From positions 1-52,731 of IMG/VR virus record IMGVR_UViG_3300050821_009259: a stretch of 52,731 nucleotides of DNA. One strand, 5' to 3'. Both the position numbers and the translations under genes were made by a program. This document shows positions 2,353 through 9,311 of this stretch, in pieces; position 1 is the stretch's first letter; the number at the start of each line of letters is the position of its first letter. This DNA is from a virus. The notes below the pieces were generated by a model. It was not told the DNA's origin, did not search any database, and saw only the letters and a program-made list of their open reading frames with translations.

Positions 2353-2746
2353 TTCAATTCACTATTCCGCCTTTGACATGAACACAATTACCATCGAAGA
2401 AATATCGGCGGCGTGCCACGACGCGACCGTTCCTGTAATTAACAAGAATCCAAATCGACAATTGGAGCGTTGGGAAAAATCCTCTGATAGAGATCGTGAT
2501 TTGTCACGGTTATGGACGGTGTTTTTACTTGAAAATCCAAACGCTTGTGTCAAGGACTTGATTGTATTCGCAGATCAACCGCGAGACAATGGAAGTGCGG
2601 TCCGTGTTGGTCGACCGATAATCCCGGCATCAGAAGACGAGGCGGAATTTGACCTGTACCTTTCCGCGTTCAGGGCATTGGAAGTTTTGATAAAAAGCAG
2701 GGGTTGGACCGTTACGCCTTATAGTCCAACTCGCTCTCCCGCCTGA
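2342..2746 (+). CDS. Hypothetical protein, convergent with terL
   Basis: A 134-residue frame; ATG 2378 (MNTITIEE) is an alternative start giving 122 residues. It is acidic and helical (EISAACHDATVPVINK and DEAEFDLYLSAFRALEVL) with no recognised motif. The last 35 bases overlap the 3' end of terL on the other strand, so the two transcripts converge. No clear terminator is visible at the junction. Confidence 0.6.
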   Translation: MPRNSIHYSAFDMNTITIEEISAACHDATVPVINKNPNRQLERWEKSSDRDRDLSRLWTVFLLENPNACVKDLIVFADQPRDNGSAVRVGRPIIPASEDEAEFDLYLSAFRALEVLIKSRGWTVTPYSPTRSPA

Positions 2747-5489
2747 ACCGTCCCTGCCTCTCGCGCAGGTCGCTCCATTCGGTGTTGTCGAAACTGTCGT
2801 GCTCCTGATTGGCGAGCTTTGAGACTTGGAAGCCACGGCGGCGAGCGCCTTCAACGCAGATGGATAGCCAGTCGAACAAGTCAGGTGAGCGGCCTGTCCG
2901 CTCCTTCATTTTCAGCTTTGTTTCGACTTCGATTTTGTCGCCCTTCACCATGTCCCATTCGCGCATGCAACCCTCGTCCATGACATCCTCTGGCAGGTTG
3001 CGTATCTGACCGGCTTCGATGGCGTAGCGCACGCTGAACCATAGTTCCGTGACGAACTTGCTATAGTGCTCGTTGCATAGCTTTAGACGGCGCTGGCGTG
3101 ATTTGTCGTCGTAAATGAATAGGTCGAGTGACACCGGTCGGTCGGTTGGATTGCCGCCGAACTCCACAGGGTTCGTCATGGCCGACCAGATGCGTGCCAG
3201 CGCGGTGCCGAGCGAGCCTCTGCCTGTGGCATCGTGGTACATGTTCTCTGGCGGTATCCCCATTGTGGTGCATTCGCCGAACACAAATGCCGCAATCTGA
3301 TCTTCCGCAGATTCCTTGGATGCCTTCACAGGGATGATTTTGGGCGCGTGAACGTTCAGCACAATCTTGCCATCAATGTCCTCACCGAACTCGACCGCGC
3401 CGCCAACGCAGCGATCTCCGCCGTAGGCCGCGTCCACGCCGTAAATCTTGGTCAGCGAAGTGCCTTTCCATTTCACGTCCTCAGTGGCTCCGAACTGAAT
3501 GCACATGTCCCTAGTAATGACTCGACGGGCGAGTGAACTGACCTTCATTGACCCGACGCACTGGCTGTTGTACTCGAAAGAATCCTTGCCGAAAAATGCT
3601 TCCGTGCGCTCGATGTTTTTGCGCTTTATGAGGTAGGGATAAAGCTCCTTTTCCTGATCGAAATTCGGCGAGTCTGTGCCAATCAGGTTAACGCACATGC
3701 CGTCGAGCATCTTCGTTTTCCATGTAGTTGTCTTGGTCGGCTCCATGTGACCGGCCCATCCGTCAACCGGCTCGGATGCCTTTCCAAGAGGGTCGATTGG
3801 GTCGTTGGGGTTGCCAAGAACCACGGCCCGAAAATCGCCGTTCGTTTCCAGATTTGAGAACGCGGAAAGGAACGAGATGGACATATACTGCGCCTCGTCA
3901 GCGATCAACCTGATGCGCTTCTGCTTGATGCCGCAGTTGTGAACGAGACAGCCGTTTACGCTGTAGCTCGGATGTCCTGCAACTTGGATATTGTGGACTG
4001 TATAGCCTCCTTGACCCTCGTTGTATCGCGCATCACTTCCACGTTCGAGAACCTCAATACGGTCCACCCTTTTGCGTTCAAAAACTTGGTTCTTTTGGCG
4101 TCCTTCTGCTGTTGAACTTTTTCCCGATGGCTGTACCCATCGACTTCCACATTCAGTTTTATGTCCAGCCACGCGAAGTCCAGATAGTAAAGGTGGGCGT
4201 CTCCCCAACGTGAACTTTTGCCGGTCGGAATGCAGTGATTGTAAGCCGCTCTCGGAAACAGAGCCGAAATTACTTTTTCCTGCCTCGTCATTGAGTGGCC
4301 GACGCCAAACCCGCCTTGCGTACGATTTTTCAGCATTTCGGGAAGCAGCCTCTTGATATTGTCGCTGCGACGTTTCAACTCCTTCGGATTGGCTCGAAGT
4401 GTCGCGCTGATTTTCTTTCCGGTCGCAACGTAATCTTGGCCCGCTCTCACCTTGTCCAAATAACCGGGCTGTTTCCATATCCACTTCGCAGAACAATGTC
4501 TGGAACAAAAAGTTACGCGCTGCTCTGACGGAATAAATTTCGTTTTGCACTGAACACAAGGCTTTTCCCAAGTGCTGTGCTGGCACTTCTTGGAACAGTA
4601 TTTCCTTGTCCCGTGACAGCCTTTCATATCCTTCTTGCAGACAATACATTGCTTCATCCGTGGAGATTAGCTCGTGTTGTGTAGATATGTCAATCGCATT
4701 TACCCAACCCAATTGAGTCAGGAACGGGTGTTCCGGGGTGCATTCGATTGATTGCCCGTTCGTCAGGTGAATGCGGAGCAAGGTGTCGGTCGGTCTTTTA
4801 AATGTCGCCTCTACTGGCATGGCGCCAGCAGCAGACCACACCACGTCGCCCGGTCGAATCTGCTCGATGGATATAGGGCCGGTTGGTGTGTCAACCAGTG
4901 TTCCAGAACGGAAGCAGAACTTGCCAAGGCCGACGAACTTGCCATTTTGGATACACGGGATTCCCTTGATGCCCTTCCTCCAATCCCTCACACGGCGTTC
5001 ATCCATATCCTTGTCGTCAATTTTGTCGGTGGCTATGAACAGCTTTGAATCAAGCAAGTGGCCGGGGATCACGTCAGGATATGCGTCTTTCGCCATCTGC
5101 CATAGTGATGTAATCTCGCCCCACGCCCTCAATCGAAGCCCTTCAATATGCGTCGACGAAACGCCCAAAAATAGTTCATCTGGAAAGCACATGTATTCCA
5201 CCAAGTAAATCCACGAAGCCTCATTTGTTTTGCCTGAGCTTGCGCAGCCGAGCAGCGTCGTGAACTTGTTCGCCAGAATCGTATCTCTGCACAACCGGTG
5301 CCAGCGATGGTCGTCCAAGTGCGGCCAGAGAATGTTCCGCACACGCTCGTAGTGGAACGGCAAGCCCTCTCCGCATTGCTTTCCGGTCTTCTCAGACATC
5401 CACCTGCCGCCCGCGCGGATGCACTCCATCTCGACAACCAGATCAGAAGTCCCGTCCTCGAATTTTGCCCCGTAGCGTTCGATTGGCAT
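2712..5489 (-). CDS. terL: Terminase large subunit (ATPase-nuclease) interrupted by an intein
   Basis: A 925-residue precursor from ATG 5489 (MPIERYG); ATG 5522 adds 11 residues. The ATPase has Walker A GCASSGKT (about residues 81-88) and Walker B LIADEA (about 528-533), with a 327-residue intein between them, immediately before Walker B. After splicing the protein would be about 598 residues, normal for TerL. The nuclease domain shows the RNase H-like acidic pattern: YGVDAAYGGDR, then HDATGRG, then RSPDLFDW near the C-terminus. It translocates DNA into the capsid through the portal and cuts it. It is the only - strand gene in this late region and stands alone between + strand genes. No small terminase subunit was recognised. 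Confidence 0.93.
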   Translation of the reverse strand: MPIERYGAKFEDGTSDLVVEMECIRAGGRWMSEKTGKQCGEGLPFHYERVRNILWPHLDDHRWHRLCRDTILANKFTTLLGCASSGKTNEASWIYLVEYMCFPDELFLGVSSTHIEGLRLRAWGEITSLWQMAKDAYPDVIPGHLLDSKLFIATDKIDDKDMDERRVRDWRKGIKGIPCIQNGKFVGLGKFCFRSGTLVDTPTGPISIEQIRPGDVVWSAAGAMPVEATFKRPTDTLLRIHLTNGQSIECTPEHPFLTQLGWVNAIDISTQHELISTDEAMYCLQEGYERLSRDKEILFQEVPAQHLGKALCSVQNEIYSVRAARNFLFQTLFCEVDMETARLFGQGESGPRLRCDRKENQRDTSSQSEGVETSQRQYQEAASRNAEKSYARRVWRRPLNDEAGKSNFGSVSESGLQSLHSDRQKFTLGRRPPLLSGLRVAGHKTECGSRWVQPSGKSSTAEGRQKNQVFERKRVDRIEVLERGSDARYNEGQGGYTVHNIQVAGHPSYSVNGCLVHNCGIKQKRIRLIADEAQYMSISFLSAFSNLETNGDFRAVVLGNPNDPIDPLGKASEPVDGWAGHMEPTKTTTWKTKMLDGMCVNLIGTDSPNFDQEKELYPYLIKRKNIERTEAFFGKDSFEYNSQCVGSMKVSSLARRVITRDMCIQFGATEDVKWKGTSLTKIYGVDAAYGGDRCVGGAVEFGEDIDGKIVLNVHAPKIIPVKASKESAEDQIAAFVFGECTTMGIPPENMYHDATGRGSLGTALARIWSAMTNPVEFGGNPTDRPVSLDLFIYDDKSRQRRLKLCNEHYSKFVTELWFSVRYAIEAGQIRNLPEDVMDEGCMREWDMVKGDKIEVETKLKMKERTGRSPDLFDWLSICVEGARRRGFQVSKLANQEHDSFDNTEWSDLRERQGRFRRESELDYKA
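3936..4916 (-). other. Intein within TerL
   Basis: The intein spans precursor residues about 192-518. Block A is CFRSGTLVDTPTGPISIE followed by RPGDVV, and block B is CTPEHPFLTQLGW, with the His expected to assist the N-S shift. The C-terminal blocks are HPSYSVNGCLVHN followed by an extein Cys. Cys1, the penultimate His, the terminal Asn and the +1 Cys are all present, so splicing should be active. The 230 or so residues between the splicing blocks have no homing-endonuclease motifs in this frame. That DNA instead encodes an endonuclease in another frame (3956-4657). Confidence 0.93.
3956..4657 (-). CDS. Vsr/DUF559-like homing endonuclease with zinc fingers, overprinted inside the TerL intein
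   Basis: A 233-residue protein on the same strand as terL but in a different frame, lying wholly inside the intein. The N-terminus holds two treble-clef-like cysteine pairs (CIVCKKDM with KYCSKKC; CVQCKTKF with TFCSRHC). A basic helical linker follows, then a PD-(D/E)XK/Vsr-type core: YYLDFAWLDIKLNVEVDGYSH, split here as the acidic residue in YLDF and the EVDGYSH motif, then KDAKRTKFLNAKGW and VLRFSN. Vsr-like homing endonucleases are known from inteins and introns. It presumably promotes spread of the intein by cutting intein-less terL. I see no ribosome-binding site before ATG 4657, so the real start is uncertain. Confidence 0.85.
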   Translation of the reverse strand: MKQCIVCKKDMKGCHGTRKYCSKKCQHSTWEKPCVQCKTKFIPSEQRVTFCSRHCSAKWIWKQPGYLDKVRAGQDYVATGKKISATLRANPKELKRRSDNIKRLLPEMLKNRTQGGFGVGHSMTRQEKVISALFPRAAYNHCIPTGKSSRWGDAHLYYLDFAWLDIKLNVEVDGYSHREKVQQQKDAKRTKFLNAKGWTVLRFSNVEVMRDTTRVKEAIQSTISKLQDIRATA

Positions 5490-5530
5490 TCGGCTGGACT
5501 TTACCGTTAAAGCCACGCACATTCAAGAGC

Positions 5531-7405: not shown

Positions 7406-7572
7406 TGAAACAGTCGCCTCCACTAAAATTGGGCTGCATAATCGACGGAAAATACCAGACCAGAGAAGCCCGATTGCTGATTTTATTTGACCCGAAAGAA
7501 CTTGGGGCATGGGTTGCAACCGATCCTGTGGTACTGAAAACGTGGCAGTCGCCAGATTTTACAACTCAATGA
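7405..7572 (+). CDS. Small hypothetical protein between nozzle and Ig-like genes
   Basis: A 55-residue protein (MKQSPPLKLGCIIDGKYQTR at the start). Its ATG overlaps the nozzle stop (TGATG) and its stop overlaps the next ATG (ATGA), which is good evidence that it is translated. It contains a short KLGCIIDGKYQTREARLLILFD stretch, given here only in outline, that looks like a small beta fold. Function unknown. Confidence 0.7.
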   Translation: MKQSPPLKLGCIIDGKYQTREARLLILFDPKELGAWVATDPVVLKTWQSPDFTTQ

Positions 7573-9311
7573 ACATCCCGTGCTCAACCGATTCGCCGTG
7601 TCCCGCCGATAACGGATTGGTGCCGAATTTGAGTTCGGAAGCCCCGGATGTATTCCAGTTCACCGGCCAGTATTACTTCTTCGCGCAGCCGCCGCTGGGC
7701 GTGGAGTGGGAATTGTTGTTCTTTACTGGGTACGGACAGGGAACAACGCCTGATGCCGCAGCGACGGCTGCGATCCCCGACGGTCAGGAGGGCGTTTACG
7801 GCACATGGACTCAGCCCGGCAGTGGCGACCCCACGCAGGCTGTTCCGCCCGGCACGCAGGAAGTTCCGCCGGGCAATCCCGGCGTGGTGACAACGAATCC
7901 GGGCGACCCCGGGTTTCCATCGAGCCGCGATGGCCGAACCGAGTTTGTCCTGCACGGCAACACGCCGCAAAGTTGCGCCATCAACTGCCCGGACGGCAAT
8001 CCGTTCGTGTACACCATCGCGGCGAACATCTTTCACTCTGGCAATCAACTGGCCGCGAACGAGGCCGCACAGACCTATGCGTGTTCGCTGGCCAAGAACC
8101 ACATCGTATGCCTGAGCGACGTGCCGCCGACGGTTTGTATAGGGGTGTTCACCAGCGCGACGATTGTCGCGACTGGCAGATACGCGACATCGCCCGGCAG
8201 CATTTGGTCGGTGGTTGGCACGCTGCCGCCCGGTATGACATTCCAAGGCAACACACCCGCGTTGGGTCAGGCCACAATTTCAGGCGTTCCAACGACTGCC
8301 GGGAGCTACACGTTCGCAGTTGAGTTTATAGACCCCGTGGGCGACACGATGGTCAAGACCTACACTGTCGCGGTGTCAGCGTTTACCGGACTTCCGTTGC
8401 CTACCGCGACAATGGGGTCGCCTTACAGTGCTCAAATTCTGGCGCCACAACTGTCCGGAGCCGCGATATTCATTTCCAGCGGCGAACTGCCGAATGGGCT
8501 TTCGATGGACGCCACGGGTTTGATTACCGGCACGCCCACCACGGTTCAAACCTCGTCATTCAGCGTGTCGGCCATCAGCGTTACGTCGCCGCCAGTGGAG
8601 TGCGAAACCGCGACGAGCATCACTGTTGGCGGGGCAGCGTATTGCTGCAATTGCGGGGCGAATGTGAAGATTCAGGGCTATACGACCGGATTGTTCGCCT
8701 ACAATCAGGCGTCCGCGATTTTGTTCACGAATGTTCAACTGGGGTCGTGGACGTTTGTCGCCGGTCAGTGGACGGCAAACATGAGCATCACGCCGGGCAA
8801 CATCGCGTGCGTGCTGGCCATCAGCGGCGTCTGGTACTACGGCACCGTGATTGGCAATGTTATCACCATTACGCCTTTGGGGAACTTCATAGACCCCGGA
8901 GTGTATCCGTGTTTCCAGAACTACGGCGCGCTTCCAAACGACGTATTCGTAGATCTATGCCTGTGCCCGTTGGGGGCGATCTCCACGTTTGGAACCGAAT
9001 GGGATGGCACTTTCCAATTGACGGATGTGTTCGCGGAAGGCAATTGCTGCTCGTGGGATGTCAGTATTCAGAACAATCATTGCGCGCAGATGAATGGCTT
9101 GGGCGACCCGTTCATTCAGTTGTCCGTCAGTGGCGTGGCCCCGAACTACACATGGACGCTCACGATTCAGCCGGTCATCACTTTTGCTGGCATTGGTGTC
9201 TATTGGGAAGGCACTGGCACCGGGCCGTCGCCATTCACGACCTACACGCAGGTCAACGCCGGGGGCTTCCAATGCACCGGGCCTGCAACCTTGACTCTTG
9301 AGCCAAACTGA
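7569..9311 (+). CDS. Virion protein with putative Ig-like (He_PIG) domains
   Basis: A 580-residue protein from ATG 7569, which overlaps the preceding stop as ATGA. The N-terminal 200 residues are rich in Pro, Gly and Cys. The middle contains two He_PIG-type Ig-like repeats, recognisable by GTLPPGMTFQG, ISGVPTTAGSYTFAV and ELPNGLSMDATGLITGTPTT. The C-terminal third is Cys-rich (AYCCNCGANV, NCCSWDV, NHCAQMNG). Such domains are common in phage head decoration and tail surface proteins and often bind carbohydrate weakly. It sits between the nozzle and the adaptor, so a tail or tail-surface role is likely. Confidence 0.6.
   Translation: MNIPCSTDSPCPADNGLVPNLSSEAPDVFQFTGQYYFFAQPPLGVEWELLFFTGYGQGTTPDAAATAAIPDGQEGVYGTWTQPGSGDPTQAVPPGTQEVPPGNPGVVTTNPGDPGFPSSRDGRTEFVLHGNTPQSCAINCPDGNPFVYTIAANIFHSGNQLAANEAAQTYACSLAKNHIVCLSDVPPTVCIGVFTSATIVATGRYATSPGSIWSVVGTLPPGMTFQGNTPALGQATISGVPTTAGSYTFAVEFIDPVGDTMVKTYTVAVSAFTGLPLPTATMGSPYSAQILAPQLSGAAIFISSGELPNGLSMDATGLITGTPTTVQTSSFSVSAISVTSPPVECETATSITVGGAAYCCNCGANVKIQGYTTGLFAYNQASAILFTNVQLGSWTFVAGQWTANMSITPGNIACVLAISGVWYYGTVIGNVITITPLGNFIDPGVYPCFQNYGALPNDVFVDLCLCPLGAISTFGTEWDGTFQLTDVFAEGNCCSWDVSIQNNHCAQMNGLGDPFIQLSVSGVAPNYTWTLTIQPVITFAGIGVYWEGTGTGPSPFTTYTQVNAGGFQCTGPATLTLEPN

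Follow-up and report, generated by a model that had tools for sequence, protein, structure and literature searches.

A phage terL intein that probably carries its DUF559/EDxHD homing endonuclease in an overlapping +1 reading frame

The gene for the large terminase subunit (terL, encoding TerL) in a viral genome from IMG/VR (record IMGVR_UViG_3300050821_009259; the 52,731-nucleotide stretch analysed, positions 1 to 52,731 of that record, is referred to here as the window) is interrupted by an in-frame intein, and we consider it highly probable that this is a mobile phage element whose homing endonuclease, a protein in its own right, is overprinted on the same DNA in the +1 frame. The anatomy of the element, the conservation of both of its frames, the fixed phase between them and its patchy occurrence are all established by computation. 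Judged from the loci collected here, this +1 nesting appears to be the usual architecture for endonucleases of the DUF559/EDxHD family in inteins.

A single uninterrupted frame of 936 codons runs through both halves of terL and the intein (Table 1), so that the host gene is not split into two open reading frames (ORFs) as it is in a ‘fractured’ gene. Read directly, the Walker A motif of TerL is GCASSGKT and the Walker B motif RLIADE, with the intein inserted 12 codons ahead of the latter (CGIKQKRIRLI-ADE). Against PHROGs, the C-extein matches phrog_2 (terminase large subunit, E=8.7e-6), and it is from this part only that TerL is recognised; searches with the nested nuclease or the whole precursor returned little. 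A preliminary description, made from the letters of the DNA alone, had proposed a TerL intein with complete splicing blocks just before Walker B, and its coordinates, Cys1, block B (TPEHPF) and C-terminus (VHN/C, the slash marking the insertion boundary here and below) all stand; the same pattern is kept in relatives, and the element has each of the sequence features of a class 1 Hint intein (N-terminal Cys/Ser, T-x-x-H, C-terminal His-Asn, and Cys/Ser/Thr at +1).

In the AlphaFold model of the intein, a Hint domain is assembled from both ends of the sequence (residues 1-95 and 280-327; predicted local distance difference test, pLDDT, mostly 85-98), with residues ~150-275 disordered; in Foldseek it comes closest to gp41-1, a bacterial intein-like domain and the Mtu RecA inteins (E~1e-6). 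The region shared with the nuclease was originally described as the middle of the intein, in effect filler, and this is correct for the predicted disordered linker. The overlap reaches further, however, in that the last nine residues of the N-terminal half of the Hint domain share DNA with the start of the nuclease, and the C-terminal Hint strands predicted at high pLDDT (residues 282-291, 305-312 and 317-320, comprising the VDRIEVL strand and block F, TVHNIQV) also fall within it and are dual-coded.

The product of the nested ORF matches Pfam DUF559 (E=1.3e-17), bearing out the earlier suggestion of a zinc-finger plus Vsr-like endonuclease in another frame of the same strand, and its sequence and model together predict a zinc-finger DUF559/EDxHD enzyme. 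The model (pLDDT 88) has zinc knuckles, a long helix and a PD-(D/E)XK-like core, and the best solved structures found by Foldseek are 3hrl and the phage-intron homing endonuclease I-Bth0305I (3r3p, probability 1.00), with which sequence comparison concurs. Across 38 relatives, D160, E171-V-D173-G-x-S-H177, D186, W198, R202 and N205 are invariant, save S176, which is nearly so; these include the E171, D173, H177 and D186 that define the EDxHD core. Among the zinc-knuckle cysteines, C34, C37 and C51 are invariant and C55 nearly so. Every catalytic and zinc-binding residue is intact in the window.

Table 1. Features of the interrupted terL gene and its nested endonuclease (window coordinates)
Feature	Position	Strand	Basis
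terL gene with in-frame intein, 936 aa precursor	5522..2712	minus	ORF; C-extein PHROG match; Walker motifs read directly
N-extein, Walker A half of TerL	4917..5522	minus	sequence reading
C-extein, Walker B and nuclease half of TerL, stop included	2712..3935	minus	phrog_2 match
Intein, 327 aa, Cys1 ... His-Asn / Cys+1	4916..3936	minus	motifs, AlphaFold Hint fold, Foldseek
Hint domain N-terminal half, residues 1-95	4632..4916	minus	pLDDT 96-98 at residues 1-90
Intein-frame linker, residues ~150-281, shadow of nuclease, predicted disordered	4074..4469	minus	pLDDT mostly <50
C-terminal Hint strands, residues 282-320, dual-coded with nuclease C-terminus	3957..4073	minus	pLDDT; z=5.9 and 7.9
Nested endonuclease ORF (predicted), 233 aa, +1 frame relative to terL/intein	ATG 4657 .. 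TAA 3956	minus	ORF, DUF559, model, Foldseek
Proposed internal start ATG, 3 codons ahead of first CxxC	4655..4657	minus	Shine-Dalgarno weak here
Two Cys4 zinc-binding knuckles, nuclease aa 4-27 and 34-55	4493..4648	minus	conserved Cys
Nuclease catalytic core	4043..4180	minus	invariance in 38 relatives; I-Bth0305I fold
Nuclease stop TAA, inside block G, GTA-AAC in intein frame	3956..3958	minus	sequence reading

The preliminary description treated the arrangement as an isolated oddity, which it is not. Scanning viral contigs with the nested nuclease as a single protein found nothing, and a profile was therefore needed; tblastn against phage records led to helicase genes in phages of Vibrio (CP-T1 and others), Pseudomonas (MR14) and Corynebacterium (phi673), where all five loci that were read carry the nuclease in the +1 frame of an intein, unannotated in every case. 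With the profile, 80 loci were retained from viral contigs, of which 77 share the +1 nesting, giving 82 of 85 for this first set once the five phage loci are included; the exceptions are free-standing nucleases (loci L013, L060 and L079). Bacterial genomes contributed ~30 further nested loci, among them one in the isolate Ktedonobacter racemifer, alongside numerous DUF559 enzymes of the ordinary cellular, free-standing sort. Of 103 distinct loci from two additional profile scans, all but three are nested: L247 is free-standing, L267 is free-standing with a decayed Hint tail, and L198 is cut by the contig end with its frame open. After de-duplication, ~157 nested loci share an identical frame offset across viral contigs, bacterial genomes and phage records (145 recognised by an automatic pattern and 12 by their open frame; for 11 of these, a C-block overlooked by the pattern is present in the locus itself or in the cluster to which it belongs). 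Since loci were selected through nuclease motifs, as the best 80 per scan, these proportions are not unbiased frequencies. The sole conventional in-frame DUF559 intein seen lies in a UvrD-type helicase of Ca. Methanosuratincola (L099:2822-5500), at the same Walker-B site. At L267:2900-3700, the +2 frame of a free-standing DUF559 nuclease keeps a degenerate Hint C-terminus (FEVLEQGHTELD-stop-CRYGAGTLYFFNFEIKRHTNYTINAASSG), which reads as a fossil intein whose splicing frame died whilst the nuclease frame stayed open.

Several lines of evidence indicate that both frames are maintained, as had been proposed. With the amino-acid sequence of the window nuclease held fixed, the probability that the intein frame is free of stops is 1.6e-4 using the codon usage of the window genes, or 1.2e-6 using the nuclease’s own, and synonymous shuffling predicts 11.5 intein-frame stops where none is present; over 62 non-redundant nested loci, none is observed against 491 expected, as compared with 810 against 747 in the third frame. 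Three free-standing controls have 7, 7 and 11 stops in the corresponding frame. Overlap-aware counts over 74 pairs give a dNN/dSN of 0.17 for the nuclease and a dNN/dNS of 0.59 for the intein frame, that is, strong purifying selection on the former and weaker selection on the latter. When synonymous nuclease codons were permuted in 84 sequences, the intein frame showed excess conservation (z 8.5 overall; 2.2 for the third frame) with two peaks, one over nuclease residues 188-202 (z 5.9), where the VDxIEVL strand of the Hint domain is encoded, and one over residues 219-232 (z 7.9), where block F is, and with conservation close to the null along the linker. These peaks at the Hint strands show that the last ~45 codons of the nuclease are dual-coded, and that the middle of the long frame is mainly just kept open. 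Two outcomes had been named in advance as fatal to the proposal, namely relatives with the long frame broken within the overlap or with the nested frame not conserved; no relative with its long frame broken inside the host gene was seen among the loci found, where it was looked for, and the nested frame is conserved, with E-x-D...H...D present in all relatives aligned.

Synthesising these findings, we suggest that translation of the long frame would yield a TerL precursor from which the Hint domain (residues 1-95 and 282-327, with a long disordered loop between) may excise itself, restoring TerL beside Walker B, and that internal initiation at ATG 4657 on the same mRNA would release the zinc-finger DUF559/EDxHD nuclease as a free protein. 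The nuclease would then cut intein-less terL alleles, with repair copying the element in. As the C-terminal codons of the nuclease are also those of the last Hint strands, loss of one function there would be expected to harm the other.

That the long frame is open by chance or base composition, only the nuclease being real, is one competing idea. Frame length alone says little here, as the preliminary description rightly cautioned, since a different same-strand shadow frame, at 8324..9301 on the plus strand inside the ORF at 7491-9311, stays open for 325 codons, rather than the 233 it gave as the maximum; neither reading of that ORF has a PHROG match. Chance is nonetheless a negligible prospect given the stop-free probabilities above (1.6e-4 to 1e-6 in the window, and none of 491 expected stops over 62 loci) and the full intein motifs and Hint fold on either side of the overlap, and the relatives already refute it. 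Group I introns often harbour nested nuclease genes, and the insert might by analogy be an RNA intron with an intronic nuclease gene, an idea that we regard as scarcely credible: the reading frame is continuous, the intein motifs are complete, and no Rfam match was found in 3700..5200 even at E<=0.1.

A programmed +1 ribosomal frameshift, fusing the nuclease to the N-terminal Hint half, would be compatible with the fixed +1 phase across the family, and some loci are without an obvious ATG or Shine-Dalgarno sequence; we consider it quite improbable, in that at most loci an ATG lies 2-5 codons ahead of the first zinc-finger Cys, and Shine-Dalgarno matches of at least 4 nt are enriched (42% of the family as against 21% of control ATGs, p=3e-4), the GAGG of several Vibrio phage loci belonging to the intein’s own Asp-Glu-Val codons. 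In the window itself, a stop three codons upstream of the ATG closes the nuclease frame, leaving almost no room in which to shift. Homing endonucleases also commonly decay once fixed, and the nuclease might be a relic that no longer homes, or that now serves another job, in an intein that still splices. A close relative (L168) does have EINGLIH where EVDGxSH is expected; set against the intact catalytic and zinc residues of the window, and a family-wide dNN/dSN of 0.17, such a relic seems unlikely.

Some observations do count against a splicing intein with a separately initiated, active homing endonuclease. Its dynamic steps (splicing, internal initiation, cleavage and homing) we infer, and the Shine-Dalgarno sequence of the window is weak. 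No close relative carrying the element at the window’s own site was found, such that the selection figures come from other loci; the 74 pairs derive mostly from one cluster, the few independent pairs and clusters agreeing on direction. Distances between the non-overlapping Hint N-terminal part and the nuclease correlate moderately (Mantel 0.42, falling to 0.21 with host-gene distance removed), and some exchange of nuclease cores is therefore possible.

The distribution of the element is patchy, of the mobile type. Relatives of the window TerL (L179, 58% identical, and L013, L011 and L015) are empty at its site, with junctions such as KW/QGVKQK, KF/LGIKQK and KF/VGIKQK; L011 and L015 have the element at Walker B of TerL instead, and L168 has it at a third TerL site. 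The +1 Cys is confined to the occupied terL, which suggests co-conversion at invasion. Across the family, hosts are nearly all P-loop ATPases that are mutually unrelated (ResIII, DEAD, SNF2, AAA, terminase), and nearly all of the insertions fall immediately after the Walker B Asp-Glu or no more than two codons away. At L013:3971-5500, a free-standing family member lies directly upstream of an intein-less TerL homologue with an empty site (GKF-LGIKQKR), plausibly a source state of the element. Separately, four host ORFs have, upstream and in frame, a match to a LAGLIDADG homing-endonuclease domain, which points to a second intein.

Out-of-frame homing endonucleases within in-frame inserts are a kind that has already been noticed, albeit little. 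A brucellaphage TerL has been described, in the passage concerned, as having an ‘intein-encoded HNH endonuclease located out of frame’ (Virol J 2015, PMC4422536). Like the window, it places an out-of-frame endonuclease inside a phage large terminase gene; it differs in its nuclease family (HNH) and in being confined to one closely related phage group and noted in passing, and the comparison is by description only, the passages concerned reporting no test of both frames. The ShiLan domain of a mycobacteriophage methylase (Genes 2025, PMC11855218) likewise hides a homing endonuclease in another frame of an in-frame insert, and is similarly patchy and mobile-looking; its nuclease is an HNH enzyme in the third frame, it has no splicing domain, and its authors anticipate that the protein retains the insert, whereas the window has a Hint domain and DUF559 rather than HNH, placing it outside that type. 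To these we add the terL intein of Rhodobacteraceae phage LS06-2018-MD07 (L173:3200-3800), at a late site (EDH/C...SN/S), in which an HNH nuclease is nested in the +2 frame; as read, the overprinting there is independent of that in the window and involves a different nuclease family. Given these three HNH cases, nuclease overprinting probably arose more than once, the DUF559 +1 version being by far the largest overprinted set seen in these scans. A literature search found no description of the EDxHD/DUF559 +1 family, of dual-coded Hint strands or of their breadth; a preprint on actinobacteriophage inteins of ‘non-canonical architecture’ (10.1101/2025.01.02.630785), cited elsewhere for overlapping frames and known to us by that citation, lay outside the search. 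We rate the large, quantified DUF559 +1 set as a new form of this known kind.

Three further systems share parts with the window. L099 combines Hint and DUF559 parts and is inserted right after the Walker B Asp-Glu, but its nuclease is in the intein frame and the C-terminal Hint part follows it, without overlap. The phage-intron EDxHD enzyme I-Bth0305I (PDB 3r3p), which we take to be encoded in a group I intron, resembles the window nuclease in catalytic-domain fold and motif but has no overlapping intein. The fractured genes of Dassa et al. 2009, as cited in PMC12350094, reportedly pair split inteins with Vsr-like/EDxHD endonucleases, and gp41-1, the nearest solved Hint domain to that of the window, presumably belongs to this set. 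The same nuclease superfamily is tied to phage inteins in both; in fractured genes the host gene is broken, with the nuclease between its halves, whereas the frame in the window is continuous. A direct link was sought but did not emerge: gp41-1-type loci (L338-L387) carry, by motif, a GIY-YIG-like ORF rather than DUF559/EDxHD, and it begins ~45 nt past the stop of the split IntN, with no overlap.

Finally, we speculate that the overprinted EDxHD inteins are one ancient, widespread mobile class, descended from a single capture of the nuclease in the +1 frame across the Hint C-terminus and spread from there, as an obligatory overlapping pair, to the Walker-B sites of many phage and bacterial P-loop ATPases, bridging free-standing nucleases next to a target gene and fractured genes with split inteins; a proposal whose chances we judge to be evenly balanced. 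If true, one nonsense mutation in the long frame would be enough to split the intein without harm to the nuclease; the family offers a testable route to split inteins. Inteins are usually drawn with the nuclease in the same chain as the splicing domain; here, mobility and splicing could be uncoupled at the protein level, yet would be locked together in the DNA. The family would also provide a large number of natural examples of overlapping genes on one strand in which selection acts on both frames, explain why many annotated phage helicases and terminases contain long featureless ‘linkers’ (gene callers miss the nested nucleases, the CP-T1, MR14 and phi673 records annotating the helicase alone), and may supply new inteins whose loops are very tolerant.
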